NCBI RefSeq assembly: GCF_000373245.1
Contig: NZ_KB890741.1
Coordinates: 1 to 64,000 of the forward strand
Origin: Echinicola pacifica DSM 19836
GTDB lineage: Bacteria > Bacteroidota > Bacteroidia > Cytophagales > Cyclobacteriaceae
Direction: 5' to 3'
Length of the DNA: 64,000 nucleotides
A program made the position numbers and the translations under genes. The notes beneath the pieces were generated by a model that was not told the origin of the DNA, did not search any database, and saw nothing but the letters and a program-made list of their open reading frames with translations. Position 1 is the first letter of the stretch. Each line of letters begins with the position of its first letter. Positions 21,648 through 39,392 of the stretch are shown in pieces.

Positions 21648-21693
21648 AGTTTTCGTTTTATTTCGTTTAATTTGATTAGTAACAAAACGAAAG
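21648..21693 (+). promoter_or_regulatory. DeoR-type operator candidate upstream of agaS
   Basis: TTTCGTTT occurs twice in direct orientation exactly 10 bases apart (21651-21658 and 21661-21668), followed by a degenerate TTTGATTA. An inverted copy, AAACGAAA, lies at 21685-21692. Direct repeats of TTTC(G/A)TTT are typical of DeoR-family operators, including those of AgaR. A TTAATTTG sequence at 21667-21674, one base off the -7 consensus, overlaps the repeats. No DeoR-family gene lies in the window. Confidence 0.5.
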
Positions 21694-21723: not shown

Positions 21724-22893
21724 ATGATAGAGACAAGTTATTTAAATTTAGGAGTAGAGGAAGTTCGGAAATCTGGGGCAGAGCATACTGCAAGGGAGAT
21801 TTCTGGCCAACCGGCACTTTGGGAAGACGTCTATGAATTGGTACTATCTCAGTCCAACGCACTGGATGGCTTCATGGACAATTTTTTATCTAAGGCTAAG
21901 GCTAGGGTGATTTTGACAGGCGCAGGATCCTCCGCTTTCATTGGTGAATCTGCCCAAGGCCCATTCCAGAAGATGACGGGTGTGTTGACTCAGGCGATTG
22001 CGACTACAGATTTGGTGACGCATCCAGAGTTATTTTTCATTAAAGATGCGCCCACGCTCTTAGTTTCTTTTGCGCGATCAGGCAATAGCCCCGAAAGTGT
22101 GGAGGCGGTAAGATTGGCAGATCAGCATATTAGCGATATCTATCATCTGATTATTACCTGCAACCCAGAAGGAAAGCTGGCAGAATATGCCAGCGAATGT
22201 GGGGGCAATTGTCATGCAGTGGTTCTGCCAAAAGAGGCAAATGATGTGAGTTTGGCGATGACGGGGAGTTTTACTTCCATGCTTTTGACAGCCCTCTTGG
22301 TGTCCGCAGGCAAGGAAAGAGCTCAGTTGAAAGGTTCCTTAGAAGCGGCGATTGCCGTGACGGACGATATGCTGACCAATAGATTAGGGGACTTTCTTGC
22401 GGTCGCTCAGCGCGAATTCAAGCGAGTGATCTTCTTAGGTTCCGGACCTATGCTCGGGATCGCAAGAGAATGCCATTTGAAACTTCAAGAGCTTACCGAT
22501 GGAGAAGTGGTCTGTAAGCACGATTCCTTTTTGGGATTCAGGCATGGTCCTAAGGCAGTGGCCAATGAAGAATCCATCGTGGTGTATTTATTATCCTCGG
22601 ACCCTCATGTGGCAAAATACGAGGAAGACTTGGTGGGGAATATCGCCGCTGACAAAAGGTCCATTGCGACCATAAGCTTTGGGGCTACCAATGGGGCTAC
22701 GCCGCACTCGATATTGAAAATCGATTCAGAAAAACAAAATTCAACAGGGTATTTTAACGTACTTCCTGCTACCTTAATGGGCCAATTATTAGGTTTCTAT
22801 AAATGCTTAGAAATGGGCTTGCAGCCGGATAATCCTTCCACCAGCGGGGCCATTTCCAGGGTAGTTCAAGGAGTGAAAATTTATTCAAAATAA
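21724..22893 (+). CDS. agaS: AgaS-family SIS-domain sugar isomerase/deaminase
   Basis: A 389-residue protein with two SIS domains, as in AgaS. AgaS converts galactosamine-6-phosphate to tagatose-6-phosphate and ammonia in bacterial GalNAc use. Visible motifs are ILTGAGSSAFIGES (residues about 63-76), SFARSGNSPESVEA (about 117-130), FLGSGPMLGIARECHLKLQELTDG (second SIS) and the downstream HDSFLGFRHGPKA. These fit the ketose-aldose isomerase branch and not GlmS, because no glutaminase domain is present. It is the first gene of a tight cluster with kinase and aldolase genes, which supports a tagatose-type pathway. DeoR-type repeats lie just upstream. The substrate (GalN-6-P, or a related amino sugar) is inferred. 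Confidence 0.88.
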   Translation: MIETSYLNLGVEEVRKSGAEHTAREISGQPALWEDVYELVLSQSNALDGFMDNFLSKAKARVILTGAGSSAFIGESAQGPFQKMTGVLTQAIATTDLVTHPELFFIKDAPTLLVSFARSGNSPESVEAVRLADQHISDIYHLIITCNPEGKLAEYASECGGNCHAVVLPKEANDVSLAMTGSFTSMLLTALLVSAGKERAQLKGSLEAAIAVTDDMLTNRLGDFLAVAQREFKRVIFLGSGPMLGIARECHLKLQELTDGEVVCKHDSFLGFRHGPKAVANEESIVVYLLSSDPHVAKYEEDLVGNIAADKRSIATISFGATNGATPHSILKIDSEKQNSTGYFNVLPATLMGQLLGFYKCLEMGLQPDNPSTSGAISRVVQGVKIYSK

Positions 22894-22899
22894 GATATA

Positions 22900-23823
22900 A
22901 TGGTTATTTCAGTCTGTCCAAACCTTTCGGTTGATACCTACGCCAGCCTAGATTCCATGGAGCTGGGGAAAGTCAATAGGATGAACAGCGTTCAGGAGTT
23001 TCCCGGTGGCAAAGGAACCCACGTAGCCCTGGCTATCGCGGAGTTTGCTGGTGAAAGTAGCTTGCTGGCCTTTTGGGGCGGAGCGACAGGCCAGTGGATG
23101 CGTCAAGCCTGCGAAGCCTATGGCGTGAGCACGGCCGGGCCGGTGCTGGCAGCGAATAACCGAAAGAGCTATACCTTTATTTCCGCAAATCCGTCCCTGC
23201 ATCATACCGAGCTTTTGGAGCCTGGACCTTCTATTTCTAAGTCGGAGTTTGACCAATTAATAGCAGACATCCTGAAGTCCCAGTCTCAAGGGGATGTGGT
23301 GGTGATCTCTGGATCATGGCCAAAAGACAGTCCTGAAAATGCCTATCAATTGGCAGTAGCCGCCTCTGCTGATGCAGGTGGAAAAGTGATCGTGGACTGC
23401 TCTGGTAAGCACCTTTCCAAAGCCCTCGAGTCAAAAGTGTTTGGCATGCATCTAAATGCCCACGAGGCTGAGGATATTTGCGGATCAGGAGAAGTGGAGA
23501 AGGTGATGGGCAAATTAAGTACCAAGGTCGATCTAATAGCCTATACCAAAGGAGCAGAAGGATTATATTTAAGTTATTTAGGGAAGATATTCCATGCCAG
23601 ATTGCATTTGGATGAAGTGATCAGCACCGTGGGTTGCGGAGACTGCCTCACTGCTGGCATTGCTTATGCCTTGGATCGTGGACTTTCGGTCGCTGAGATC
23701 GCCCGCTACGGGGTGGCTTTTGGCGCAGCCAACTGCCTGAGACCCGAACTCGGGATGCTCCATAAATCAGATGTACAAAAACTCCTCCCCATGGTGGAGA
23801 TTAATGAATTGAAATATGCGTAA
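22900..23823 (+). CDS. 1-phosphofructokinase/LacC-type hexose kinase (PfkB superfamily)
   Basis: A 307-residue kinase beginning ISVCPNLSVDTY and containing FPGGKGTHVALAI (residues about 34-46), as in FruK, LacC and PfkB. The anion-hole and catalytic-base motif near residue 247 reads VGCGDCLTAG in place of the common VGAGDSMVAG, and the catalytic Asp is kept. In this context the likely job is phosphorylating tagatose-6-P to tagatose-1,6-bisphosphate. Fructose-6-P or fructose-1-P are alternatives. It starts six bases after agaS and overlaps the next kinase gene by eight bases, which points to translational coupling. Confidence 0.85.
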   Translation: MVISVCPNLSVDTYASLDSMELGKVNRMNSVQEFPGGKGTHVALAIAEFAGESSLLAFWGGATGQWMRQACEAYGVSTAGPVLAANNRKSYTFISANPSLHHTELLEPGPSISKSEFDQLIADILKSQSQGDVVVISGSWPKDSPENAYQLAVAASADAGGKVIVDCSGKHLSKALESKVFGMHLNAHEAEDICGSGEVEKVMGKLSTKVDLIAYTKGAEGLYLSYLGKIFHARLHLDEVISTVGCGDCLTAGIAYALDRGLSVAEIARYGVAFGAANCLRPELGMLHKSDVQKLLPMVEINELKYA

Positions 23824-24760
23824 TAAGGACTTGTTTGTGGTTGGAGAATTGAATGTGGATTTAATCCTCAATCATATAGATGGTTTTCCTGAGATGGGCT
23901 CCGAAAAAGTGGCTTCAGATATGACCATTACCTTGGGGAGCTCATCCGCAATTTTTGCCTCCAATATTTCGGTATTAGGCACCGGCACCGCCTTCTGCGG
24001 GAAGATCGGTAAGGATGATTTCGGGAAATTAGTGATCGATTCCCTTTCGGATAAATCCGTGGATACCTCCAGCATAGTGGAGGCGACGGCTTCCAAAACC
24101 GGCCTTACTGTGGTGATGAATTACGATCAGGACCGGGCAAATGTCACCTATTGTGGAGCAATGTCTGAGATGAGCCTAGAGGATATAGACTGGGAGGAAG
24201 CCTCAAAGTATAAGCATTTTCACCTGTCCAATTACTTTCTGCAAAAAGGACTGCAAAAGGATATTGTCAAGATTTTTGCCACAGCAAAAGAATATGGCTT
24301 ATCCACTTCCCTGGACCTACAAGTGGACCCTGACGGGCAATGGGATTTTGACTATAAAGCCTGTTTGCCTCATGTGGATGTATTTATGCCCAATAAGTCA
24401 GAGCTTCTTGGTCTTAGTCATGCGGCCAGCGTGGAAGAGGGGATTGCCGTATTGGAGCCTTACGCAAAGGCCATTGCGGTAAAGATGGGAACGGAAGGCT
24501 CACTGCTCGCCCAAAATGGCGAGCGGATCACTGCCCCCGTTTATTCTCATAAGCACTTTGTGGATGCTATCGGAGCAGGAGACTCCTTCAATGCCGGCTT
24601 TATTTGCAAATATATTCAGGGATCCTCCTGGGAGGAATCACTGAAATACGGCAACCTGATGGGAGCACTGAATACAACAGGTCATGGGGGCACGGGAGCA
24701 TTCTCCTCCTTCAGCGACCTGAAAACAAATGCACAAAAAATTTTCAAAGAAGATATCTAA
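23816..24760 (+). CDS. PfkB/ribokinase-family sugar kinase
   Basis: A 314-residue ribokinase-like kinase. The N-terminus is VVGELNVDLIL with a Gly-rich segment LGSSSAIFASN in place of the usual GGAxxN, and the catalytic signature near residues 249-259 is DAIGAGDSFNAGF. It is clearly different from the preceding LacC-type kinase (DTxGxGD context, different N-terminal motif). Two kinases in one short cluster would fit two phosphorylation steps. A plausible role is making GalNAc-6-P or another sugar-6-phosphate for AgaS, but this is inference only. It overlaps the previous gene by eight bases and ends nine bases before the aldolase ATG. Confidence 0.85.
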   Translation: MRNKDLFVVGELNVDLILNHIDGFPEMGSEKVASDMTITLGSSSAIFASNISVLGTGTAFCGKIGKDDFGKLVIDSLSDKSVDTSSIVEATASKTGLTVVMNYDQDRANVTYCGAMSEMSLEDIDWEEASKYKHFHLSNYFLQKGLQKDIVKIFATAKEYGLSTSLDLQVDPDGQWDFDYKACLPHVDVFMPNKSELLGLSHAASVEEGIAVLEPYAKAIAVKMGTEGSLLAQNGERITAPVYSHKHFVDAIGAGDSFNAGFICKYIQGSSWEESLKYGNLMGALNTTGHGGTGAFSSFSDLKTNAQKIFKEDI

Positions 24761-24769
24761 TCAATCGTG

Positions 24770-25594
24770 ATGAAATTAAAAAGTAAATTACAGGAATTCC
24801 AACAGCATAAACGTGGGCTATTGGCAACCAACTTTTATAATTACGAAACCTTAAACGGCGTGCTTACTGCAGCATCCAACCTCGGTGAGCCAGTAATCCT
24901 ACAGCTCACCAAAAGCTCCATTGACTATATGGGGCTGAATACAGCGGTGGCCTTGGGACGCGCGGCTTTGGCCGAGCATGGGGTAGAAGGTTGGATTCAT
25001 TTGGACCATGGCGGAAGTGTGGATCTCGCACAGGCATGCCTGGATGCGGGTTTCGATTCAGTCATGATAGATGGGAGCGAGCTGCCATTTGAGGAGAATG
25101 TAAAAATCACCTCAGAAGTGGTGAAGAGGGCCCATAAATATGGTGCTAATGTGGAGGCCGAACTTGGCTATGTCGCCAAATTGGGGCAGTCTCATGAGCA
25201 TGCTGGATTTACCACAGCTGACGAAGCCAAAGCCTTTGTAGAAGCTACCGGTGTAGATGCTTTGGCAATTTCTATTGGCACAGCCCATGGTTTTTATAAA
25301 GAGGAGCCTAAATTGCAGTTTGATAGGCTAAGTGCCATCGCAGAAGTGACAGAGGCCACCTTGGTGTTACATGGAAGCTCTGGGGTGCCCGAAAGCCAGC
25401 TGAGAGAGGCCATCTCCCGAGGAATCGTGAAAGTAAACCTGGCCACAGAAATCAAAAATATCTTCATGAAAACCTTGCAGCAACAGCTGAGAGATAATGA
25501 GGAAATTGACCTGCGTAAAGTGTTCCCATTCGCAACCAAGGCGGTTACCGAACTCGTGGAATACAAGCTTAATATAATGAAAAACAAAAAATAA
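24770..25594 (+). CDS. Class II tagatose/fructose-bisphosphate aldolase (GatY/KbaY/FbaA family)
   Basis: A 274-residue zinc-dependent aldolase splitting a ketose bisphosphate to DHAP and glyceraldehyde-3-P. Zn and catalytic residues can be seen: HLDHG at 77-81 (catalytic Asp and Zn His), Glu in EAELGYV (about 130), His in GTAHGFYK (about 173) and His in LHGSSG (about 201). The short length fits the GatY/KbaY/YdjI group. E. coli KbaY and GatY need the KbaZ or GatZ partner for full activity, and none is encoded here. ATG at 24770 is used; a GTG at 24767 is adjacent. Its neighbours favour tagatose-1,6-bisphosphate as substrate. Confidence 0.9.
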   Translation: MKLKSKLQEFQQHKRGLLATNFYNYETLNGVLTAASNLGEPVILQLTKSSIDYMGLNTAVALGRAALAEHGVEGWIHLDHGGSVDLAQACLDAGFDSVMIDGSELPFEENVKITSEVVKRAHKYGANVEAELGYVAKLGQSHEHAGFTTADEAKAFVEATGVDALAISIGTAHGFYKEEPKLQFDRLSAIAEVTEATLVLHGSSGVPESQLREAISRGIVKVNLATEIKNIFMKTLQQQLRDNEEIDLRKVFPFATKAVTELVEYKLNIMKNKK

Positions 25595-25601
25595 TACCTT
25601 C

Positions 25602-26588
25602 ATGATTCGTCCTTTTATTGATGCACATGTGCACTTAAATAGCCTCTCTGAGGAAAAGATGAAATTAGCGGAAAGGTATAATGCGGGCTTCCTTTCGATC
25701 AATACCCAAATCCCGCATTTCGATAGCGTGGAGAAGCAAGGAGAAACTGCCCGGGCAATAGAGGAGAAGTATCCGGGTCGGGTTAGGTTTATTACCTCAT
25801 TTGATGCGGAAGGTATGCATGAGGACGGATGGGCCCAAAAGGCCATTCATCAAATCCAAAAAGGCTTGGATAATGGCGCTGCAGGTGTGAAAATCTGGAA
25901 GAATATCGGAATGGACGTCAAGGATGCTCAGGGGAATTATATTATGATCGATGACCTTAGGCTGAAGCCCGTACTTGATTTTCTGGAACAAAACCAGATT
26001 TTGCTAATTGGCCATCAGGGAGAACCCAAGAATTGCTGGCTGCCCTTGGAGGAGATGACCGTTAATTCGGATAGAGATTATTTTTCTAAACATCCCCAAT
26101 ACCATATGCATCTGCATCCGGAATGTCCCTCTTATCAGAGACAAATGGAGGCACGCGATGCTATCCTCCAGCGCCACCCTAAGCTGCGATTTGTAGGTTT
26201 ACACTTGCTGAGCATGGAGTGGAGTATAGAGGAAGTAGCGCAGCGCATGGATCGATATCCTCAGCTGCTTACTGACCTGGCCGAGCGCGTTTGCCACCTG
26301 CAGCTGCAGGCTCAAACCAACTGGGAGGATGTACGGGAATTTATGATTAAGTACCAGGATAGAATCATGTACGGTACCGACCTGATCGATGATGGATCAA
26401 TGCCTGCCGTGGAGGTCGCCCAGCGATTTAAGCACCTTTGGGAATTTCATTGGGCTTTCTTTGCCGGAAAAGAAGAGTTGGAAGCCCCGGAATTTTCGGG
26501 GACTTTCAAGGGGCTCGACTTGCCGGATTCAGTATTGGAAAAGATCTTCTATTCCAATGCTAAGGAGGTTTATGGATTTACATTTTGA
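25602..26588 (+). CDS. Metal-dependent amidohydrolase (TIM-barrel, COG2159-like)
   Basis: A 328-residue cytosolic protein of the amidohydrolase superfamily. Likely metal ligands are the HxH of FIDAHVHLN (residues 8-10), Lys in GVKIWKN, His in LIGHQGE, His in FVGLHLLSMEW and Asp in MYGTDLIDDG. Family members carry out hydrolysis, deacetylation, lactone opening or decarboxylation. The cluster lacks a NagA/AgaA-type GalNAc-6-P deacetylase, so this enzyme is the best positional candidate for that step, but its sequence belongs to a different branch and the role is unproven. It follows the aldolase by seven bases and would be co-transcribed. ATG at 25602. Confidence 0.82.
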   Translation: MIRPFIDAHVHLNSLSEEKMKLAERYNAGFLSINTQIPHFDSVEKQGETARAIEEKYPGRVRFITSFDAEGMHEDGWAQKAIHQIQKGLDNGAAGVKIWKNIGMDVKDAQGNYIMIDDLRLKPVLDFLEQNQILLIGHQGEPKNCWLPLEEMTVNSDRDYFSKHPQYHMHLHPECPSYQRQMEARDAILQRHPKLRFVGLHLLSMEWSIEEVAQRMDRYPQLLTDLAERVCHLQLQAQTNWEDVREFMIKYQDRIMYGTDLIDDGSMPAVEVAQRFKHLWEFHWAFFAGKEELEAPEFSGTFKGLDLPDSVLEKIFYSNAKEVYGFTF

Positions 26589-26699
26589 TCTCCATAAACT
26601 TTATTTTAATGAATGAATGAATGGAAGTTTAGTGGCTGCAGAAGTTTTGACAAAGAATAATCTGTATTTCGCTGCTCCTGACCATAATGTGACACTTTA

Positions 26700-26707
26700 T
26701 AATTTTG
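26700..26707 (+). promoter_or_regulatory. Candidate -7 box upstream of the GH109 gene
   Basis: TAATTTTG fits TAnnTTTG and lies about 49 bases before the GH109 start, in a 167-base gap. No good -33 element was found, so the gene might instead be read through from the agaS operon. Confidence 0.35.
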
Positions 26708-26755
26708 AATAATAAGATACTTATAGATATATAGCAATAATAAACAAAAGGGATT

Positions 26756-28165
26756 ATGAGTAATAATAGAAGAGATTTTCTTAAGCTTTCCGGACTCGCC
26801 GGAATGGGATTAGTTGGTTCAGGCTTGACTGGTTTCAATCAAAAAGAACTCGACAAGGTGTTGGTTCAAAGCAAGCGTGGCCATGAGCAGCGCTTCAATA
26901 TGTCAGGCTATTCAGCACCAAAACTCGATGTGGTTCGTGCTGGCTTTATAGGTCTGGGTATGCGTGGCCCAGGTCATGTAGAGCGAATGAGTAAAATCCA
27001 AGGCGTGGAGATTAAAGCAATCTGTGATTTGCTGCCCGACAATGTCGCCAAAGTAAAAGAATCTCTGAAAGGAACTGACCATAATCCTGAGACCTATTCA
27101 GGCTCTGCCTATGCATGGAAGCAGATGGTGGACCGCGATGATCTCGACATTATTTTTATCCTTACCCCTTGGGATTGGCACGTTCCAATGGCTGTATATG
27201 CCATGGAAGCGGGTAAGCACGTGGCCATAGAAGTGCCTGCGGCTAAGACCTTAGAGGAATGCTGGGAGCTGGTAGAGACTTCTGAGCGTACCAAAAAGCA
27301 CTGCATGATGATGGAAAACTGCTGCTATGACTTCTTTGAGATGATGACACTCAACATGGCTAGAGATGGCTTCTTTGGGGATGTTATCCATGGAGAAGGT
27401 GCTTACCTCCATGATTTGCTTGGGCTAAACTTCAGCAAGAAGGGCTACCAAGACATGTGGAGATTGAAGGAAAATGCTACCAGAGATGGTAATCTATATG
27501 CCACCCATGGCCTGGGACCGATCTGCCAGATTATGGATATCAACAGAGGAGATCAAATGGATTACCTTACTTCCTTGTCCAGCAATGATTTTATGATGAG
27601 AAGTCATGCTCAGGACCTGGCCAAAGAGGATGATTTCTTTGCCTCCTATGCCAATATGGATTTCCGTGGAAATATGAATACCACTATGGTGAAAACCAAA
27701 AAAGGTAAGTCCATCATGATTCAGCATGATGTGACCTCGCCACGCCCGTATTCTAGAATTCACCTGGTAAGCGGTACCAAGGGAATTGCTCAGAAATGGC
27801 CAAAACAAGGAGTCGCTACAGGCCATCAGTGGTTTACTGATGAGCAAATGAAAGACCTTGAAGAAAAATATACCCCGGAAATCACCAAAAAAGTAGGTGA
27901 GATGGCCAAGCAAATTGGTGGTCACGGTGGGATGGACTTTATGATGACCTGGAGACTGGTGGATTGCCTGAGAAATGGCCTGCCATTAGACCAGGATGTC
28001 TATGATGCCGCATTGTGGAGCGCGATATCGCCACTTTCTGAGTGGTCTGTCGCTAACCGCGCCACTTCTATCGATGTGCCTGATTTCACTGGCGGTTCAT
28101 GGAAAACCAACGCTCCGGTAAGTATCACCCTCGAAGGTGGTGGAACTACTAAAGTGGTGGTTTAA
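26756..28165 (+). CDS. GH109-type alpha-N-acetylgalactosaminidase (Gfo/Idh/MocA fold, Tat-exported)
   Basis: A 469-residue NAD-dependent glycosidase-like protein. The N-terminus NRRDFLKLSGLAGMG is a Tat signal, as expected for a protein exported with bound NAD. A Rossmann segment (AGFIGLGMRGPGH) follows. Sequence blocks agree with the characterised Elizabethkingia GH109 enzyme as I remember it: TPWDWH, TLEECWELV, the Glu-containing MMENCCY, LYATHGLGP, MDINRGD, GHGGMDF, ISPLSEWS and PDFTGGSWK. These include the blocks that hold its active-site Tyr/His residues. GH109 hydrolyses terminal alpha-GalNAc, for example blood group A, through oxidation and elimination. It ends the agaS cluster, which suggests a supply of GalNAc to it. 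A plain oxidoreductase role is less likely. Confidence 0.85.
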   Translation: MSNNRRDFLKLSGLAGMGLVGSGLTGFNQKELDKVLVQSKRGHEQRFNMSGYSAPKLDVVRAGFIGLGMRGPGHVERMSKIQGVEIKAICDLLPDNVAKVKESLKGTDHNPETYSGSAYAWKQMVDRDDLDIIFILTPWDWHVPMAVYAMEAGKHVAIEVPAAKTLEECWELVETSERTKKHCMMMENCCYDFFEMMTLNMARDGFFGDVIHGEGAYLHDLLGLNFSKKGYQDMWRLKENATRDGNLYATHGLGPICQIMDINRGDQMDYLTSLSSNDFMMRSHAQDLAKEDDFFASYANMDFRGNMNTTMVKTKKGKSIMIQHDVTSPRPYSRIHLVSGTKGIAQKWPKQGVATGHQWFTDEQMKDLEEKYTPEITKKVGEMAKQIGGHGGMDFMMTWRLVDCLRNGLPLDQDVYDAALWSAISPLSEWSVANRATSIDVPDFTGGSWKTNAPVSITLEGGGTTKVVV

Positions 28166-29009: not shown

Positions 29010-29705
29010 ATGGAAGCATTAAACAATTTTAAGGAGATTAAACTTGAGCATCCCGTAGATGTGATTATAAGTCAGATCCGTGATTTAATTCTTTCAGGCG
29101 AGCTGAATCCGGGAGATAAGCTACCTCCCGAGCGCAAGTTATCCGAAAAATTAGGTATCAGCAGAACCTATGTGCGTGAAGCGATCAAGAAATTGGAGTT
29201 TTATGGCATAGTAAGAACGCAACCTCAGAGTGGGACGGTGATTGCCGGTTTGGGCATCACGGCCTTGGAGGGCTTGATTACGGATGTGTTGAAGATGGAA
29301 GGCAGCGATTTTCATTCATTGATTGAGACGCGACTTATCCTTGAGTCCCAGACGGTGCGTTTAGCAGCTGAAAGGAGAACGGCCGAGGATGTGATCGCCA
29401 TGGAGGAGGCCTTGGAGCTCTATGAGAGCAAGGTTAAATCCGGAGCTCAGGGGATTGATGAGGATCTGTTGTTTCACATTAAGATCGCTGAGGCAAGTAA
29501 GAACAACGTTCTGAAATCGCTAATGCTGGTCGTGACACCCGATATTCTGACGCACTTCACCAAGCATAATGTATGCGGAGGAGGAAAGCCATTCGGAGCA
29601 TTGCTGGAACACAAGGAGATTTTGAAGCACATTATCCATCAGGATGCATCTGCAGCTGAAGCTGCAATGAAAAACCATTTATCAGATATCATTTCTAAAA
29701 AGTAA
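29010..29705 (+). CDS. FadR-subfamily GntR transcriptional regulator
   Basis: A 231-residue repressor-type regulator. The N-terminal winged helix-turn-helix (GELNPGDKLPPERKLSEKLGISRTYVREAIKKLE, residues about 31-64, split here for reading) is followed by an all-helical FCD ligand domain. Likely metal ligands are Asp/His in DLLFHIKIAEAS, His in LEHKEIL and His in MKNHLSDI. FCD regulators sense sugar acids or other carboxylates. FadR-type regulators occur in other alginate loci, for example AusR of Zobellia, so an unsaturated uronate-derived ligand is plausible. Two palindromic operators lie within 35 bases of the ATG at 29010. It heads the alginate utilisation locus, 216 bases before susC. Confidence 0.9.
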   Translation: MEALNNFKEIKLEHPVDVIISQIRDLILSGELNPGDKLPPERKLSEKLGISRTYVREAIKKLEFYGIVRTQPQSGTVIAGLGITALEGLITDVLKMEGSDFHSLIETRLILESQTVRLAAERRTAEDVIAMEEALELYESKVKSGAQGIDEDLLFHIKIAEASKNNVLKSLMLVVTPDILTHFTKHNVCGGGKPFGALLEHKEILKHIIHQDASAAEAAMKNHLSDIISKK

Positions 29706-29717
29706 AATGCCTATGAT

Positions 29718-29751
29718 AAAAAAAAATGGTGGATAGAATCCACCAAGTTTT
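29718..29751 (+). terminator. Possible terminator after the FadR-type gene
   Basis: A run of A, then the stem TGGTGGAT / ATCCACCA with a 3-base loop (29727-29745), then AGTTTT. The T-run is short, so termination may be partial. Confidence 0.45.
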
Positions 29752-29921
29752 ACCATCAGGAATGTAAGAGCTACTCTTAAAGATTGTCGAGGTCCTTCAT
29801 TGTAGTTTCCCTAATAGATATTCAAAAGTACAAAAAAAATAGGAATATCAATTTCGCCCTCTTTACCATTCCTGGTTCCTCTCATACAAACTAATTTTAT
29901 TTAAACAATTTCATACCCAAA

Positions 29922-32900
29922 ATGAGAAAACCATTACCATCAGAAAAACGGAATGGGCAGGTGAATTATATAGCCGTCGTTTCATTAATAATTGGCCTGT
30001 TTTTTAGCCAATTAGCCCAAGGGTTTGCTTTCCAAACCGCCAATACCTCGCCTATTTCAGGCCAAGTTACAGACAATACAGGGGAGTCCATTCCTGGTGC
30101 CAACGTTATTGTCAAAGGCACTTCAAATGTCACAGTTACAGACCTTGAAGGTAATTTTAAGATCAATGCAGCGCCAACAGATATTCTTATTTTTTCTTTT
30201 ATCGGCTATGCAACCCAAGAAATTCCAGTAGGAAACAAAAATCAATTCAACGTAGTGCTTGAGGAGGACCTGAAGCAGCTGGATGAGTTTGTGGTAGTAG
30301 GGTATGGTACCCAGAAAAAATCTCACGTTACCGGTGCAGTATCAAAATTGCAGGATGAGCGTCTAGGGGAGATCCCGGTAACTCAAGCTGACCAAGCACT
30401 GCAAGGTAAAATCGCCGGCGTGCAAATTCAAAACACGACTTCTGAAGCGGGCGTATCCCCCTCCATCCGGGTGCGTGGCAATGCCTCCATTGGAGCAAGT
30501 AATGAGCCCTTAGTAGTTGTGGATGGCTATCCTACTCCTGATGGCTTGTCCTTTATCAATCCCAATGATATAGAATCCATCGAAGTGCTTAAAGATGCTG
30601 CTTCTGCTGCCATCTATGGGTCTAGAGGTGCAAATGGTGTGATCATCGTCACCACCAAAAGTGGCGTAGTAGATAAGCCTAAGTTCAACTTCAAGATGTA
30701 TGCCGGGGTAAAGAACCCATATAAGGTCCATGATATGCTGACCTCTACGGAATATACCGAGATGCTGTGGGCAGAAGAGGCGCTGGGCGGAGTCGGTCCT
30801 ACCTCCCATGAGGAAGCCGCTTGGTCTGTAGGTGATAATACCGACTGGCAGCAAGAAGGTCTCCGTCAGGGAGTTATCAGCAGCTATCAGCTAAGTGCCT
30901 CTGGAGGCAAAAAGGATGTGACCTATATGATCTCTGGTGGCTATAATGATGAGAAGGGCATGCTAATCAATAACGATTACCAACGCTTCAACGCTCGTCT
31001 GAAACTGGATGCCAGACTTAATAAAATATTGAAAATCGGGGTCAATGTAAACCCTTCTTATACGAAGAATATCCTTCCGGCGTCTAATTTTACAGATTAT
31101 TTCAGAACGCCCTCTTTCATGCCGGTACGACATACAGCAGAAACTTCTGCCCTTACAGGAATCCCTGAAGGAGATTGGGCTCACGGCCGCCACTTTAATA
31201 ACTTGACTTATGTCTATACCACTCCCGCGGGAGAGGATATGTCCGTCGTGGCCAGACCTTGGAATACTTCCAATAATAACCCACGCTTCATCAGCGATAA
31301 TGATAGCCGTACCAAAAATCAATATCGCCTGATGGGATCCACCTATTTCCAGTTGGACTTCAACAAGAACTTATTCTTCAAAGCCACTCAAGGTGCATAT
31401 GTCACCAATACCGTAGGGGAGGAGTACAGAAATGAAGGAACAAACCGGGCGGGTGATCCTAATCGCGGGGCTTATGAAAGCAGATTGCGAATCGATTTGT
31501 TGTCAGAAAATATCCTGAACTACGCCAAAACCTTTGGTGAGCATGACTTCTCGGCCTTGGCAGGCTTCACGGCTCAGCGTGTGACCAATACTTATGCAAG
31601 CATTGTGGGTACCAATTTCCCTACAGACTATGTGCCAACCTTGAATGGCGCCACTGTCCTGGATCTTGGTGATACCTATACCCTTAAGGACGAAAACCTG
31701 CTCTTATCTTATCTTGCGAGGGTGACCTATTCCTTCAAAAACAGGTATTTGTTCTCCGCAAGTACACGTACTGATGGTAGTTCAGTATTTGGTCCGGAAA
31801 ATCGATGGGGCTGGTTCCCTTCTGTTTCCGCAGGCTGGGTGCTGTCTGAGGAAGACTTCCTGAAGTCCAGCCAGGTGATCGATATGTTGAAGCTTAGAGG
31901 TAGTTACGGGGTGACGGGAAATAATGATATTGAAAATTATGCCTCTGTAAACCGACTTTATTCGAATAACTACAGCTTCGGCTCTGGTACTGGAGTTCTC
32001 GTACCGGGCTTAGCACAGTCTGGCGAAACGCTGGCAAATAAGGCTATTGCCTGGGAAAGAACCTTCTCTTATAATATAGGAATGGATCTTGGGTTTTTAA
32101 GTAACCGATTCTTCCTTTCTGCTGAATTTTATAATTCTGTTACCGACCAATTATTGCTGAAACAACCGACCTTGGCTTTTACCGGCTATAATGAGTTCTG
32201 GAATAATATCGGTAAGGTAGAAAACAATGGTTTCGAATTGGAGTTGAGCCTTAATAATATCAATACCAGTAATTTCCAGTGGCAAACCTCCTTCAATTTT
32301 GCAAGGGTTAAGAATAAGCTCGTGGAATTCAGCGGTGAGGATCGTTTGCTAAGTTATGGTGAAAGACAGGAAGTTTACCTCGCCCAGGTAGGTCAGCCGT
32401 ATATCCAGTTTTTTGGATACAAGACGATCGGGGTATGGAATTCTCAGGAGGAAATAGACGCCAATGCCAGCAACAGTCTGGACCGTCCAGGAGGCCTGAG
32501 GCTTTCGGATGAAAATGGTGACGGAGTAATCGATGATGATGATCGCGTGGTATTAGGAAATCCTTTTCCAGATTTTACCTGGGGTATAACTAACTCATTT
32601 AACTTCTTCAATTTTGACCTAAGTATCTTAGTTCAGGGTGTACAAGGACTCGATGTGTTCAACGGTGATGGCCACTATAACGAATCAAAAAGGATGAATC
32701 GTGCTTATGTCGAAAACAGATGGATCTCTGCTGAGCACCCAGGTGATGGTAAGACCCCTTATAGCACCAACGGTATAGGCTGGCAGTTTACGGATTATAT
32801 GATAGAAGATGGATCATATGTGTCTGTACGTGATATTATCCTTGGGTACACCTTACCGAAATCACTGGTGGAGCGGATCAAACTGCAGAATATAAGGGTG

Positions 32901-33071
32901 TATGGCTCTGCTCAGAATGCTCTATACTTCACCTCCAAAGGCTACAGAGGCATTAACCCTGAGGCAAGATCTACAAGTGGATCTTATGAATCCCCTCTCG
33001 TGAGTGGATATCAGCGGGGAGCTTTCCCGGTACCTAGAGCATTTGTGTTCGGTTTAGACATTAGCTTTTAA
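29922..33071 (+). CDS. SusC/RagA-type TonB-dependent outer membrane transporter
   Basis: A 1049-residue outer membrane importer. A long N-terminal hydrophobic signal (IAVVSLIIGLFFSQLAQGFA) is followed by a CarboxypepD_reg-like domain (SGQVTDNTGESIPGANV, residues about 47-120). The SusC signature VVVGYGTQKKSHVTGAVS comes next, and then the plug domain (GVQIQ, IRVRGNASIG, NPNDIESIEVLKDAAS, AIYGSRGANGVIIVTTK). The rest is a beta-barrel ending in the C-terminal Phe (LDISF). It imports oligosaccharides bound by the SusD-like partner that starts 11 bases later. With the downstream PL6 and PL17 genes the cargo is most likely alginate oligosaccharide. Energy comes from TonB-ExbBD, which is encoded elsewhere. 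Confidence 0.95.
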   Translation: MRKPLPSEKRNGQVNYIAVVSLIIGLFFSQLAQGFAFQTANTSPISGQVTDNTGESIPGANVIVKGTSNVTVTDLEGNFKINAAPTDILIFSFIGYATQEIPVGNKNQFNVVLEEDLKQLDEFVVVGYGTQKKSHVTGAVSKLQDERLGEIPVTQADQALQGKIAGVQIQNTTSEAGVSPSIRVRGNASIGASNEPLVVVDGYPTPDGLSFINPNDIESIEVLKDAASAAIYGSRGANGVIIVTTKSGVVDKPKFNFKMYAGVKNPYKVHDMLTSTEYTEMLWAEEALGGVGPTSHEEAAWSVGDNTDWQQEGLRQGVISSYQLSASGGKKDVTYMISGGYNDEKGMLINNDYQRFNARLKLDARLNKILKIGVNVNPSYTKNILPASNFTDYFRTPSFMPVRHTAETSALTGIPEGDWAHGRHFNNLTYVYTTPAGEDMSVVARPWNTSNNNPRFISDNDSRTKNQYRLMGSTYFQLDFNKNLFFKATQGAYVTNTVGEEYRNEGTNRAGDPNRGAYESRLRIDLLSENILNYAKTFGEHDFSALAGFTAQRVTNTYASIVGTNFPTDYVPTLNGATVLDLGDTYTLKDENLLLSYLARVTYSFKNRYLFSASTRTDGSSVFGPENRWGWFPSVSAGWVLSEEDFLKSSQVIDMLKLRGSYGVTGNNDIENYASVNRLYSNNYSFGSGTGVLVPGLAQSGETLANKAIAWERTFSYNIGMDLGFLSNRFFLSAEFYNSVTDQLLLKQPTLAFTGYNEFWNNIGKVENNGFELELSLNNINTSNFQWQTSFNFARVKNKLVEFSGEDRLLSYGERQEVYLAQVGQPYIQFFGYKTIGVWNSQEEIDANASNSLDRPGGLRLSDENGDGVIDDDDRVVLGNPFPDFTWGITNSFNFFNFDLSILVQGVQGLDVFNGDGHYNESKRMNRAYVENRWISAEHPGDGKTPYSTNGIGWQFTDYMIEDGSYVSVRDIILGYTLPKSLVERIKLQNIRVYGSAQNALYFTSKGYRGINPEARSTSGSYESPLVSGYQRGAFPVPRAFVFGLDISF

Positions 33072-33082
33072 CCCAAATTTCC

Positions 33083-34543
33083 ATGAAAAATATAAATAAA
33101 CATATCTATACATTTCTGATTTCGGTAGGCCTGATCACCAGCTGTGATATGTCCTTAGATCTTCAGCCGATTTCGGAAATAGGTGAGGGGTCTTTTTATC
33201 AGACCGATGCCGATTTTGTGACCGCCATGGTTGCTTGTTATAATGGATTGCAGGCACCACTGGCCAATGAATGGGCCCTGACGGAACTGCGATCTGACAA
33301 TACCCGTCTGCATAATTCTCAGACTTCCAGTAATACTTATATCCCCCTGCGGGAGCTGGATCTTATGACCTTTACCTCTGAGCATCTTCATATCTATAAT
33401 TACTGGGCAGACACTTATCAGAATATATCCAGAATCAACACGGTGACTGACCGTCTCCAGGATATAGAAAGTCCAAGCCTTCGTGACCAATTGGAAGGCG
33501 AAGCTTCTTTCCTCAGAGCCTATCATTATTTCAATTTGGTAAGGTTATTTGGTGAGGTGTTTTTGGTGGACAGAAGAATATCCGCTCAGGAAGCTACCCA
33601 GATGAATGTAGCCAGCACGGAATCATTGTATCAGTTTATCATCGAGGACCTTACGAAGGCGGTGGATTTATTGCCCACTAGCTATGGTTCTTCTGATATC
33701 GGGAAAGCTACTTCCTGGTCAGCCAAGGCCTTATTGGCTAAGGTATATAGGGATCTCAAAGATTACGATGCGGCGATCCCGCTATTCGAGGACCTAATTC
33801 AGAATAGTGGTGCGCAACTGCTCACTGGTACTAATGCCTTCCAGCAGGTATTCTCTATCAATAATGAGATGAATAATGAAATCCTATTTGCCGTTCGCTA
33901 TAAGGCGGGAGGTCTGGGAATCGGTTCTCCATTTGCAAATTACTTTGCACCCTTAAATAGTGGTTCTTTTGTGGTCAACGGCGATGGAGATCACTTCAAT
34001 CGTCCTACAGATGAGTTGCTAAGCCAATACACTGATTTTGATCTTCGTAAAGAAACTACTTTCAAAACCGGTTATCTCGGTGGAAATGGCTCTTTCATAG
34101 CCGATCCATATGTTTATAAATTCTTCTCTGATGTTGCCATTAGTGAAGATGGAGAAAATGACTTCCCGATTATTCGTTTTGCAGATATCCTATTATTATA
34201 TGCAGAGGCGCTCAATGAGGTTGGAAGAACCTCCGAGGCACTTCCTTACCTCAACCAGGTAAGAGTAAGAGCCGGCTTGGAGGCTTATCAGGCTTCTGAA
34301 ATTGTTTCCGCAGATGATTTTACTGATAAATTATTGCAGGAACGTCGCTTGGAACTGGCCTTCGAAAACCAAAGATGGTATGATCTCCTCCATTATGGAT
34401 TGGTAGAGCAAACCCTGGACGAGCAGTTTCAGACGGAAGCATTCTATTCAGAATACACCTTCGGAATAGACGCTGTTCAATCCGACAAACTATACCTCCC
34501 ACTTCCTCAAAGAGAGGTGGATATATTTAACCAGACACCGTAA
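33083..34543 (+). CDS. SusD/RagB-family surface glycan-binding lipoprotein
   Basis: A 486-residue lipoprotein. The signal peptide ends in the lipobox LITSC (Cys at about 21), followed by acidic residues (DMSLDLQP) that favour surface export in this phylum. The SusD fold is supported by TPR-like helices (SFLRAYHYFNLVRLFGEVFLVD; YNDRY-like parts absent), the late motif FADILLLYAEALNEVGR with YLNQVRVRAGL, and the terminal RRLELAFENQRWYDLLHYG. It caps the SusC barrel and captures the glycan. It follows susC by 11 bases. A weak hairpin terminator lies 15 bases after the stop. Confidence 0.95.
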   Translation: MKNINKHIYTFLISVGLITSCDMSLDLQPISEIGEGSFYQTDADFVTAMVACYNGLQAPLANEWALTELRSDNTRLHNSQTSSNTYIPLRELDLMTFTSEHLHIYNYWADTYQNISRINTVTDRLQDIESPSLRDQLEGEASFLRAYHYFNLVRLFGEVFLVDRRISAQEATQMNVASTESLYQFIIEDLTKAVDLLPTSYGSSDIGKATSWSAKALLAKVYRDLKDYDAAIPLFEDLIQNSGAQLLTGTNAFQQVFSINNEMNNEILFAVRYKAGGLGIGSPFANYFAPLNSGSFVVNGDGDHFNRPTDELLSQYTDFDLRKETTFKTGYLGGNGSFIADPYVYKFFSDVAISEDGENDFPIIRFADILLLYAEALNEVGRTSEALPYLNQVRVRAGLEAYQASEIVSADDFTDKLLQERRLELAFENQRWYDLLHYGLVEQTLDEQFQTEAFYSEYTFGIDAVQSDKLYLPLPQREVDIFNQTP

Positions 34544-34558
34544 TTATTTGGAGTTGGG

Positions 34559-34604
34559 AAAGCCGGCCTGGATGTTTTGGGTTTACTGGGCCGGCACCCT
34601 TTTC
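34559..34604 (+). terminator. Possible terminator after susD
   Basis: The stem GCCGGCC (34562-34568) / GGCCGGC (34589-34595) has a 20-base loop and is followed by ACCCTTTT. The T-run is imperfect, so partial read-through into the lyase genes is likely. Confidence 0.45.
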
Positions 34605-34902
34605 CTATATTAATGAGGCTTTTGATCCCTCTGATTACCGCTTTAGTGCGCAGCACTTTCATCTTACCCTATACCAATATCAAGCATCCCGCAGCATAGC
34701 GAATAGATCATAAGATCTGATTTGACCTCAACTCTGCCCGATCGCTTTACCATCGACATTTCCATAGCCTTGCTATGCCCCTGTCTCCATCCGAATTGAT
34801 TTAAGCACATTATAAGGCCTTCGGTATTTTAAACCGAAACTTGCGAATACGATTCCAACTACTAATCCATGTTGAACCCTCATCTTTATTATTGTTGAGT
34901 TA
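34605..34902 (+). other. Spacer between susD and the lyase genes
   Basis: About 300 bases without an open frame or RNA gene. I see no exact TAnnTTTG box and no copy of the FadR-type palindrome. It separates the transport pair from the three lyase genes, so a separate promoter is possible but not shown. Confidence 0.4.
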
Positions 34903-37176
34903 ATGAAATATTACGTCCTTTTTATAGCTCTTTTCGCCCTCCATCTAGGTTTTGTTGCCCAGGCACAGACTGAAACCTACGATATACCTATGCCCAGTGA
35001 GCAGGCTTTTTTTGAGGGACTGCCGAGCACCATTCCCAATGCCCAAGCGATTAAAGAATTGTATGCTAGCGGTGACCGCGCAGGTGCCATTGATAAACTG
35101 GCGAATTATTTTAAAGAGAAATCTAGCGAACGATTTTATTTTTCATGGAAGAATATAGCTTCCCGAATGGCCGAATATGACAGCATTTACCCTTCCGCTG
35201 CCAAAAGCCATGCAAAAGATGCCTCTTCCTATTTTAATGATTTTACTGCTCCCACGGCCTGGAAATTGCCTTTTACTAATAAGGCAGGAGTGGAGATGAA
35301 TGCCTATGCCATCCGACACCTATTCAGACAACATAAAGCAGGAGACTTGGCTTTTGCCTATTATTTACAAGACAAGAAGGAGCTTTTAGGGTATTTTGTG
35401 GAGCAAGTGAAGGGGCTAAATGCCGCCTATCAAGGCCATGAAATTGAGATAATTGCAGATGGAAATGGCGCTTATGAGGCTTTCAGGGGAGGGAATAGAA
35501 TGGAAAATTGGCTCCTTGCCCATCATCTGTTTCTAGGCTCAGAGGATTATCTTCCGGAAGATCAGATCACCCTTATCCGTACATTCCTGCATCATGCAGA
35601 GGTCCTTTATCAGACGAATACGGATTTTCAATATGGCAATCATCAGACCAAAGGCATGGTGGCACTAGCCTCAATTGCCATGCTATATTCTGAGTTTGAT
35701 GCGGATACGAAATACTTTGACCGGGCTATTGACCTTTTAGGACAGCACTTGCAAGAGGAAATCAATGAGGATGGATTCCAATTTGAGCGTTCATATCATT
35801 ACCATATTGGGGATATTGACAATTATTTCCGAGTATATAAACTGGCTCAGCTGACCCATAGCCCCATCTCCAAAACCTGGGAGGCGAAGCTGGAAGATAT
35901 GTTCAAGGCGATTAGTTTGATTGCTTTTCCCAATGGAGAAGCTCCAGTCATTCAGGATGATACCGATCAGCCGATGGCCACGACCAATGTCCTCAATGAA
36001 ACCATGGCCTTGGGCTATACCTTATTTCAGGATGAAGTTTTTGGTTATTTTGCCTCCTCTGTTCCTTCCGAGGAATATTATTGGCTCATGAGCCAAAAAG
36101 ACATCGCCCAGCTGCAGCACAAAAAGACGAAGAAGCCTACTTATAAGTCCAGCGCGCTGACTTCCACCGGATATTACGTGTTCAGAGATGGCTGGAATGA
36201 TGATTCCTTCTATATGCTCATCAGTACTGGACTGTCCGATACTAAGCCCGATCACCAACATGGGGATGCTCTGGGATTTCAGATTTATGCCAATGGAAAC
36301 ACCGTACTTCCAAACTATCAAGTTCGATATCCACTTCCGGAATATGAGTTTTTCAAAAATTCTTGGGTGAAAAATGTGGCCCTAGTGGACTCCATTCCTC
36401 AAGGTTTGGAGTGGAGTGGAAATCAGGGAGGAAGTGGATTTGGGAAGTTTAATAAACTACCTCGCTCCACGGTGTCCGTCTGGGAACCTAAAGGGAATGT
36501 TCAGGCTTTTAGCGCCACTCATGATGGTTATGCAGATTTGGGAGTCAGTTATCAGCGTACTATTTACTTTTTCCCGGGCGAATTTTGGTTGGTCAAAGAC
36601 GTCTTTGAAGGGGGAGAGCCTCATCAGTTTTATCAGAATTTCCAAGGGAATTATACCTTGGAAGATGCGCCGTATATAGCGCGGGCTAATTATATGGATG
36701 CTTCAGGTTTAGATATTATACAGCTTAATAATAATAGAATTCAAGCGCTAATAGGTGGTGACAAAGGTAAAAATAGACTTACCTATCAGTCTGAGCCCAT
36801 GAAGGAATTTGATTTTGTGTCCATCATCCGTCCTTATGGCAAATATGATGAGCGCACTTCTATCTCTACTGAGGGAGAAGCCATGCAATTGGGAGATTGG
36901 GATCTCCATTATCAATCCTTGAGCCTGCGGCAATTGTCGGTACAGGCAGATTATATTTTCATCAAAGGAAAGCAGCTCTGTGTGATAGGTTTGAAGGTGC
37001 TTAAGCTTGGTGATGATGAATTTATTCCTGAAAATACATTTGATCTATTGATAGAAATTGATGATCAAACATTAACTCTTAAATCATTCGATTCTAAACC
37101 AATTAGCCTGACAGGCGCTGATCGAGCGCTGTCGCTAAAGCCCTTAGAATCACAAAAATTAAACCCAAACCAATGA
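34903..37176 (+). CDS. Heparinase II/III-fold polysaccharide lyase, probable alginate lyase
   Basis: A 757-residue exported enzyme with a Sec signal (MKYYVLFIALFALHLGFVAQA). The N-terminal half is an alpha/alpha toroid, with RGGNRMENW, FQYGNHQTKGM (Asn/His typical of the catalytic region) and FERSYHYHIGDIDNYF. The C-terminal half is the heparinase II/III beta-sandwich (PDHQHGDALGFQIYANGN). It is only distantly like the PL17 gene product two genes on. The architecture fits the PL39/PL12/PL21-like set, and PL39 includes alginate lyases. No lipobox is present, so it is a periplasmic or secreted protein. It overlaps the next lyase gene by four bases (ATGA). Confidence 0.8.
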   Translation: MKYYVLFIALFALHLGFVAQAQTETYDIPMPSEQAFFEGLPSTIPNAQAIKELYASGDRAGAIDKLANYFKEKSSERFYFSWKNIASRMAEYDSIYPSAAKSHAKDASSYFNDFTAPTAWKLPFTNKAGVEMNAYAIRHLFRQHKAGDLAFAYYLQDKKELLGYFVEQVKGLNAAYQGHEIEIIADGNGAYEAFRGGNRMENWLLAHHLFLGSEDYLPEDQITLIRTFLHHAEVLYQTNTDFQYGNHQTKGMVALASIAMLYSEFDADTKYFDRAIDLLGQHLQEEINEDGFQFERSYHYHIGDIDNYFRVYKLAQLTHSPISKTWEAKLEDMFKAISLIAFPNGEAPVIQDDTDQPMATTNVLNETMALGYTLFQDEVFGYFASSVPSEEYYWLMSQKDIAQLQHKKTKKPTYKSSALTSTGYYVFRDGWNDDSFYMLISTGLSDTKPDHQHGDALGFQIYANGNTVLPNYQVRYPLPEYEFFKNSWVKNVALVDSIPQGLEWSGNQGGSGFGKFNKLPRSTVSVWEPKGNVQAFSATHDGYADLGVSYQRTIYFFPGEFWLVKDVFEGGEPHQFYQNFQGNYTLEDAPYIARANYMDASGLDIIQLNNNRIQALIGGDKGKNRLTYQSEPMKEFDFVSIIRPYGKYDERTSISTEGEAMQLGDWDLHYQSLSLRQLSVQADYIFIKGKQLCVIGLKVLKLGDDEFIPENTFDLLIEIDDQTLTLKSFDSKPISLTGADRALSLKPLESQKLNPNQ

Positions 37177-39383: not shown

Positions 39384-39392
39384 TAATAAACT

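Follow-up and report, generated by a model that had tools for sequence, protein, structure and literature searches.

The described systems closest to the locus analyzed here are the aga/gam cluster of Escherichia coli and the N-acetylgalactosamine (GalNAc) pathway of Shewanella, both of which have a DeoR-type regulator. In the available excerpts of the published descriptions, both pathways include AgaS and a tagatose-bisphosphate aldolase, and the Shewanella pathway relies on a permease and a kinase instead of a phosphotransferase system. Here, we analyze a related gene cluster in a stretch of 64,000 nucleotides from Echinicola pacifica DSM 19836 (contig NZ_KB890741.1, positions 1 to 64,000; hereafter the window). 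The cluster has AgaS and the aldolase in common with both systems and is of a type that, as in Shewanella, combines a permease with a kinase, but it differs in its presumptive deacetylase, which comes from a family other than that of E. coli AgaA, in its PfkB-type kinase, and in its GH109 glycosidase, often accompanied by SusCD partners. The Bacteroidota cluster is a new variant of the known GalNAc pathway, not a new kind of system. One of its components is an amidohydrolase (AMH) which, judging from the comparative evidence presented below, is probably the deacetylase of GalNAc, either free or as the 6-phosphate.

The deacetylases NagA and AgaA (TIGR00221), which act on N-acetylglucosamine (GlcNAc)-6-phosphate and GalNAc-6-phosphate, form family CE9 and, as is predicted for AMH, are metal-dependent barrels of the amidohydrolase superfamily. 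AMH, however, has no match to TIGR00221 or PF01979; no NCBIfam model matches it at an E-value of 0.001, and Pfam gives PF04909 only. By this profile evidence, AMH belongs to PF04909, not to CE9. The other members of PF04909 (ACMSD, dihydroxybenzoate decarboxylases, PDC hydrolase, and the uncharacterized BB4693, structure 3irs) resemble AMH in the Pfam match and the overall fold, but the context of the known members is aromatic degradation as opposed to amino-sugar catabolism.

The accessible part of one source describes the CE9 active site as Glu/His/His with an arginine of the partner subunit for the phosphate, lists families CE4, CE9, CE11, CE14, and CE18, and adds OngB, a D-aminoacylase-like GlcNAc1A deacetylase (PMC12017989). 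With OngB, the amidohydrolase superfamily already offers a precedent for a new carbohydrate de-N-acetylase family, although, as described there, OngB differs from AMH in its subtype V Cys/His/His site, its large insertion domain, and its substrate. Variation at the deacetylase step also has prior art in Shewanella, where AgaAII is listed, in the excerpt available, as a novel assignment (PMC2996990). Among the matches listed from the open-licence PMC literature, no title or abstract mentions a GalNAc deacetylase of the Amidohydro_2 (PF04909) family. AgaAII was reportedly assayed by Leyn in 2012 as a novel variant of GalNAc-6-phosphate deacetylase.

Results

The cluster consists of six head-to-tail genes on the forward strand, encoding AgaS, two PfkB-type kinases, a GatY/AgaY-type aldolase, AMH, and a GH109 glycosidase. 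From agaS to AMH, successive genes are 6 bases apart, overlap by 8, and are again 6 and then 7 bases apart, and 167 bases separate AMH from GH109. An initial annotation, made from the letters of the window alone, had described these six genes in this order on one strand, with five of them tightly spaced and no deacetylase of the NagA/AgaA type among them; each of these statements holds, all six open reading frames being in place (Table 1), and beyond the cluster no NagA/AgaA was found in the whole genome (5.44 Mb, 99.99% complete), where the best match to TIGR00221 is partial and scores 27.5 bits against a cut-off of 225.65. The same operon lies between an M42 peptidase gene and guaA in nine Echinicola loci beside that of the window. 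Because the gene order is the same in all nine of these loci and recurs, with exchanges, across the phylum, the six-gene cluster is real and more than a chance arrangement.

Among the 11 Echinicola genomes examined (G000 to G010, G000 being that of the window), 10 encode AMH, and the remaining one, G002, has neither AgaS nor AMH. A NagA gene is present elsewhere in four of them (G003, G004, G005, and G010; 192 to 208 bits), and none of these four stretches (the match plus 1.5 kb on each side) contains the 8-base half-site of the operator-like sequence described below; in the one stretch that was read gene by gene (L117), the NagA gene, by eye, follows a sodium/solute-symporter-like gene. A co-regulated NagA elsewhere in the genome, the objection that the initial annotation had raised against its own proposal, was therefore rejected: the window genome has no NagA match above 27.5 bits, and the NagA stretches of the congeners lack the operator 8-mer.

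In a sample of 395 genomes of the phylum, 21 carry a true AgaS (>150 bits). We read the 20 AgaS neighborhoods beside that of the window by open reading frame clustering, Pfam, and tblastn, and found AMH inside the agaS cluster in 16 of these 20 loci outside the genus (L094-L101, L103, L104, L106, L108-L112), so that the arrangement, for which the initial annotation had proposed such a survey, is widespread. The four clusters without AMH are L102 (genome G067), L105 (G214), L107 (G337), whose one amidohydrolase is a distant one that shares 23% identity with AMH, and L113 (G203). In the last, the matches to AgaS and the sodium/solute symporter family (SSF) are truncated, although the cluster is similar in other respects; it has the appearance of a copy in decay. 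The steps around AMH vary: LacC is found in 7 of the 20 clusters and GatZ in 8, with neither in 5 and both in none, a mutual exclusion that would fit a role of GatZ/AgaZ at the tagatose-6-phosphate step. The aldolase is GatY or LacD, the permease is EamA or SSF, SusCD is variable, and PfkB is present in 18 of 20. Because these neighboring steps exchange while AMH is kept in 16 of the 20 loci, AMH is one of the more constant parts of the cluster.

A profile (A2) built from 19 AMHs of AgaS loci, used with a threshold of 430 bits, detected AMH in 18 of the 395 genomes, comprising 17 of the 21 with AgaS and one of the 374 without (Fisher p = 3.9e-25, unadjusted for relatedness); the AMH-bearing genomes cover 7 of the 10 AgaS-bearing genera, the window genus included. 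NagA (>140 bits, E <= 1e-40) was detected in 70 of the 395 genomes and is evenly distributed, with 4 of 21 among the AgaS genomes versus 66 of 374 among the others (p = 0.77). Since AMH is enriched and NagA is not, the gene that keeps company with AgaS in this sample is AMH rather than NagA. To control for the derivation of the model from AgaS loci, whole genera were left out in turn, and all 19 held-out AMHs scored at least 258 bits. Among the AgaS-negative genomes, only G249 (439 bits, an exported form) and G191 (394 bits) exceed 200 bits, the rest scoring at most 186.

A scan of GTDB genomes confirmed at least 516 relatives of AMH, the best 80 of which were analyzed in stretches extending 10 kb on each side where available. 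AgaS lies in the examined stretch of 46 of these best 80, a share that is biased upward because the loci were ranked by similarity to an AgaS-linked query; NagA was found in none of the same stretches (tblastn, E 1e-8). The 46 AgaS-linked relatives include Salegentibacter, Galbibacter, a Leeuwenhoekiella metagenome-assembled genome (MAG), Belliella, Fodinibius, and Chitinophagaceae MAGs as well as three proteobacteria, Massilia timonae, Roseateles depolymerans, and Steroidobacter agaridevorans. A genome-wide search for NagA, started from 40 of these 46 loci and covering 39 genomes, several of them MAGs whose completeness is not given, found it at 184 bits or more in 21 and no match above 40 bits in 18. 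Taken over the 65 genomes that have both AgaS and AMH (10 from Echinicola, 16 more from the phylum sample, and these 39), NagA above 40 bits was not found in 37.

The proteobacterial clusters allow a direct comparison of the deacetylase slot. In a gammaproteobacterial sample, 4 of 369 genomes have a true AgaS (>=337 bits), and three of the four (loci L303, L304, and L305) combine AgaS, GatZ, a DeoR-type regulator, and a NagA homologue without AMH, L303 having a ROK kinase between AgaS and GatZ. By comparison, the locus of the fourth, Steroidobacter (L208), reads EamA, GatZ, AgaS, BadF kinase, AMH, the Massilia locus (L215) is alike, and in Roseateles (L218) AMH lies 5.8 kb from AgaS on the opposite strand; the BadF kinase of L208 scores 72 of 370 bits with the N-acetylglucosamine kinase model NagK_SO3507, below the cut-off. 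NagA is absent from the examined stretch of all three loci and present elsewhere in the three genomes (243 to 316 bits). Judging from these gene orders, AMH and NagA exchange in comparable proteobacterial agaS clusters, as do kinase families (PfkB, BadF, and ROK) across agaS clusters.

Beyond the AgaS-linked forms, 37 AgaS-free loci (of 46; among L053-L062, L172-L221, L307, and L308) hold mostly exported relatives of AMH, with sulfatases (7 loci), SusC-like genes (6), and GH109 (4) as recurring neighbors, which suggests that AMH relatives may have a wider role in the breakdown of sulfated or amino-sugar glycans. A more distant amidohydrolase clade, 21-25% identical to the AMH of locus L111, has the motif D(M/V)HSH and some signal-like N-termini. 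Its genes (L106 at 16717, L107 at 443, L177 at 5338, L184 at 5675, and L175 at 17738) adjoin PfkB or follow GatY. AgaS is present in all but one of these five loci, and one of the five, L107, is a cluster that lacks a typical AMH. One contig filed as a Natrialbaceae archaeon MAG (L171) carries an AMH 50% identical to that of the window beside an SSF transporter; mis-binning is possible.

The initial annotation had proposed a structure prediction and search of the amidohydrolase, which yielded a confident model of a TIM barrel (pLDDT 92.3, pTM 0.91) but only superfamily neighbors. Using Foldseek and VIA-align, we obtained as the best structural match 3irs (Z 21.4, 240 residues, root-mean-square deviation 3.0, 20% identity), followed by 3cjp and decarboxylases and lactonases of the PF04909 type; the top Foldseek match is ACMSD. 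NagA is not among the 50 matches listed by either method, an absence from a list that carries no weight. In CE9 NagA, an N-terminal beta segment precedes the HxH strand; the AMH model has no such segment, nor room for one, because its barrel begins at the HxH strand (residues 5-12, with HxH at residues 9-11). Ten residues are invariant in 19 AMHs (H9, H11, K97, H138, E141, H168, R185, H201, R229, and D260), and H9, H11, H138, H201, and D260 are kept in the divergent AMH groups as well. PF04909 is characterized by HxH, two further histidines, and an aspartate at strand ends, and by analogy with the amidohydrolase superfamily in general we take the histidines and the aspartate of AMH to be metal binders and water activators.

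In a tree of 119 family members, built by a quick method with long-branch warnings, one clade of 53 AMH proteins (SH-like approximate likelihood ratio test, SH-aLRT, 100) includes none with a signal and one that is unclassified, the signals being judged by hydropathy and by eye and not by a signal-peptide program; 44 of the 53 have AgaS in the locus. Around this clade, many proteins have N-terminal hydrophobic stretches and a lipobox-like cysteine. The window AMH is cytosolic, with HxH beginning at residue 9 and an open frame that allows at most 7 extra residues. Lipoprotein-like forms nevertheless occupy the AMH slot in L182, L189, L204, and L222, where 14-41 bases lie between the GatY match and their own start; in L180 and L214, which belong to the same small clade as L182, no signal was seen. 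The cytosolic AgaS-linked proteins (52) and the exported proteins (41) have in common 39 positions that are at least 95% identical in both groups, and none of the seven cytosol-specific positions (A8, N13, T35, F40, E228, I262, and Y324) is a lysine or arginine. NagA is present in 10 of the 11 genomes with exported or uncertain AMH versus 11 of the 28 with cytosolic AMH (p = 0.005), and hence not found in 1 of 11 versus 17 of 28, or in 1 of 9 versus 17 of 30 when the uncertain L180 and L214 are counted as cytosolic, a contrast that is confounded by lineage and involves several MAGs whose completeness is not known.

Upstream of agaS, we identified an operator-like palindrome, TTTCGTTT-n16-AAACGAAA (Table 1). 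The pattern TTTCGTTTN{14,20}AAACGAAA has a single exact match in the window genome (5.44 Mb), one match each just before agaS in G001, G003, and G007, one there and one elsewhere in G005, and none in G002, the Echinicola genome without the agaS cluster. A reversed control pattern gives as many matches, 0-2 per genome, and we accordingly rejected the count as evidence: because the number of matches is at chance level, only their position before agaS is telling. In 74 AgaS loci, not independent of one another and with ten from a single genus among them, the 8-mer half-site or its complement occurs upstream of agaS in 37, compared to 2.3 expected under mononucleotide shuffling, and its density is 1.73 per kb upstream of agaS versus 0.11 per kb across the loci overall. 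A gene for a DeoR-type regulator adjoins many agaS clusters of the phylum and, with 67-80% identity, is present outside the cluster in all six Echinicola genomes searched, the cluster-free G002 included. The cluster is probably part of a GalNAc regulon under an AgaR/DeoR-type regulator, and the DeoR protein encoded in the window genome at G000:C19:179868-180617 may bind the operator-like site at 21661-21692.

Discussion

In the GalNAc clusters of many marine and soil Bacteroidota, the usual deacetylase is missing and its position is occupied by an unrelated, uncharacterized hydrolase, AMH, which therefore probably takes over the deacetylation; the GH109 gene in the operon points to an acetylated sugar. 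The initial annotation had proposed a non-orthologous deacetylase from the position of the gene; this proposal is well supported by the co-occurrence of AMH with agaS, its exchange with NagA, and a genome in which NagA was not found, a body of comparative support that goes well beyond position alone. From gene content, order, conservation, co-occurrence, the operator-like site, and the predicted fold, we infer the enzymatic steps and the regulator of a pathway. In this pathway, GH109 would free GalNAc, AMH would take off its acetyl group, and the PfkB kinase together with the deacetylase would give rise to galactosamine-6-phosphate, which AgaS would deaminate to tagatose-6-phosphate; the LacC-like kinase would then form tagatose-1,6-bisphosphate, to be cleaved by the GatY-type aldolase.

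Provided that AMH is a deacetylase, we lean slightly toward deacetylation of free GalNAc as the first step. Sugar phosphates are expected only in the cytosol, and a substrate common to the family is thus more likely GalNAc without a phosphate or a glycan that ends in GalNAc. Under this scenario, which we put forward tentatively, AMH and its relatives would be a new family of carbohydrate de-N-acetylases built on an ACMSD-like PF04909 barrel, acting on unphosphorylated GalNAc as cytosolic proteins or lipoproteins depending on the lineage, with PfkB subsequently phosphorylating galactosamine. A somewhat more doubtful version of the deacetylase reading is that cytosolic AMH acts on GalNAc-6-phosphate in the slot of AgaA, and the exported relatives on another substrate. 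The cytosolic location of the window AMH favors it, as does the order of the known GalNAc pathways, in which, according to the excerpts available, phosphorylation precedes deacetylation; NagA, present in nearly all genomes with exported or uncertain AMH, was often not found in genomes whose AMH is cytosolic, a contrast that would agree with a cytosolic form having taken over the phosphorylated substrate of NagA, but for the lineage confounding and the MAGs noted above. We nevertheless consider GalNAc-6-phosphate doubtful as the AMH substrate because the slot after GatY is taken in several lineages by lipoprotein-like forms and because, beside the many positions conserved in both forms, the cytosolic one has no specific lysine or arginine. 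The suggestion of the initial annotation that GalNAc-6-phosphate is the specific substrate is accordingly not supported over free GalNAc.

Several observations weigh against a deacetylase function of AMH. No sequence relative of AMH was found among solved structures, and its structural neighbors are largely decarboxylases, lactonases, and dihydroorotases. In the phylum sample, no AMH reaches the threshold in four of the 21 genomes with AgaS (G067, G203, G214, and G337), and three of these (G067, G203, and G337) have neither AMH nor NagA; in G024, the AgaS cluster is without AMH in the examined 15.8 kb, and two AMH relatives are on other contigs. What follows GatY in L175, L177, and L184 is a more distant amidohydrolase whose N-terminus resembles a signal, the typical AMH being elsewhere in the locus. 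Among the best 80 relatives, 34 have no AgaS in the examined stretch, some of these on cut contigs. Five AgaS-free relatives, four of them exported, score 384-457 bits with the AMH model, and the exported ones, at 408-457 bits, are level with held-out AgaS-linked AMHs and above those of genus g152 (258-271 bits); with scores that overlap in this way, the model does not separate AgaS partners from other relatives, and the association is that of the family, not of an AgaS-only group. NagA-free genomes are equally common without AgaS (308 of 374), and the lack of NagA, being a common background, is no signal in itself. Furthermore, the search that found the window genome free of NagA took in NagA/AgaA, and deacetylase families CE4 and CE14 were not searched for.

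These observations raise the alternative that AMH is not a deacetylase but cuts another bond in GalNAc glycans, or is a lactonase or isomerase, with the operon using galactosamine or an unlinked deacetylase. The decarboxylases and lactonases among the fold neighbors, the three AgaS genomes without both AMH and NagA, the neighborhoods of the AgaS-free relatives, in which GH109 is rarer than sulfatases and SusC-like genes, and the presence of NagA elsewhere in 28 of the 65 genomes with AgaS and AMH, the three proteobacteria included, all agree with this alternative. It would, however, leave the missing step of GalNAc catabolism empty and a near-constant gene without a role, and it accounts poorly for the exchange of AMH and NagA in proteobacterial clusters and for the GH109 gene of the operon; we consider it unlikely. 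That AMH merely hitchhikes in one old operon inherited within the Bacteroidota, as the relatedness of the genomes and the placement of most signal-free AgaS-linked AMHs in the single 53-protein clade could suggest, is very improbable given that kinases, aldolases, and transporters vary while AMH is mostly constant and that AMH accompanies AgaS with other kinases in Massilia, Roseateles, and Steroidobacter.

A deacetylase function of AMH would bear on how GalNAc users are recognized. In the accessible part of one published reconstruction, AgaA is the marker that splits GalNAc users from users of galactosamine only (PMC5583593). By this rule, AgaS-bearing Bacteroidota without NagA, the Echinicola of the window included, would be called galactosamine-only. 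With AMH as the deacetylase, such rules would underestimate the extent of GalNAc catabolism among marine and soil Bacteroidota, and one further family of carbohydrate de-N-acetylases would be added. Should the substrate be free GalNAc, many GalNAc-using Bacteroidota would deacetylate before phosphorylating, the reverse of the textbook order.

Gene assignments and flanking genes

Table 1. Coordinates of the agaS cluster and its operator-like sites in the window.
Feature	Position	Strand	Match or remark
Further TTTCGTTT half-site	21651-21658		
Palindromic operator-like site TTTCGTTT-n16-AAACGAAA	21661..21692	+	31 bases before the agaS start codon
agaS, SIS-domain protein, presumed galactosamine-6-phosphate deaminase/isomerase	21724..22893	+	TIGR02815, 374 bits
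LacC/1-PFK-like hexose kinase, presumed tagatose-6-phosphate kinase	22900..23823	+	TIGR03168, 196 bits
PfkB/ribokinase-type kinase, presumed galactosamine or GalNAc kinase	23816..24760	+	PF00294, 158 bits
GatY/AgaY-type class II tagatose-1,6-bisphosphate aldolase	24767..25594	+	PF01116, 289 bits; GTG start
AMH, cytosolic PF04909 amidohydrolase, proposed GalNAc de-N-acetylase	25602..26588	+	Amidohydro_2 (PF04909), 52.4 bits (cut-off 26.4)
GH109-type alpha-N-acetylgalactosaminidase	26756..28165	+	PF21252, 149.1 bits (cut-off 27); twin-arginine translocation (Tat)-like N-terminus, by eye

The genes of the window were assigned from Pfam and NCBIfam profile matches and the nearest solved chains. 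The AgaS protein scores 374.4 bits, below the curated TIGR02815 cut-off of 529.2, which is very strict, being passed by none of the genomes in the 395- and 369-genome samples and by 1 of 14 controls; the name is given because of full-length similarity to the nearest solved chains, 3odp, 3c3j, and 3i0z, which are putative tagatose-6-phosphate ketose/aldose isomerases. The first kinase had been labeled LacC-type at the outset. Its membership in the hexose kinase family stands, with 195.8 bits for the 1-PFK subfamily model TIGR03168 (under the cut-off of 216.4), but the LacC model TIGR01231 gives 97 bits, not reaching its cut-off of 409.55, and the label is therefore loose. The solved chain nearest to the aldolase is 1gvf, AgaY, and those nearest to the GH109 product are 6t2b and 2ixa, both GH109 enzymes.

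Downstream of the cluster, at 29010-41504, GntR, SusC, and SusD genes form a block together with lyase genes of the heparinase II/III-like, PL6 (Chondroitinas_B), and Alginate_lyase+Hepar_II_III types; from its domain content, this block is probably an alginate locus. These lyase genes were considered as a clue to the substrate of the cluster and rejected, given their alginate-type Pfam content and their location between GH109 and guaA in the window only; in the nine other Echinicola loci, GH109 is followed directly by guaA.

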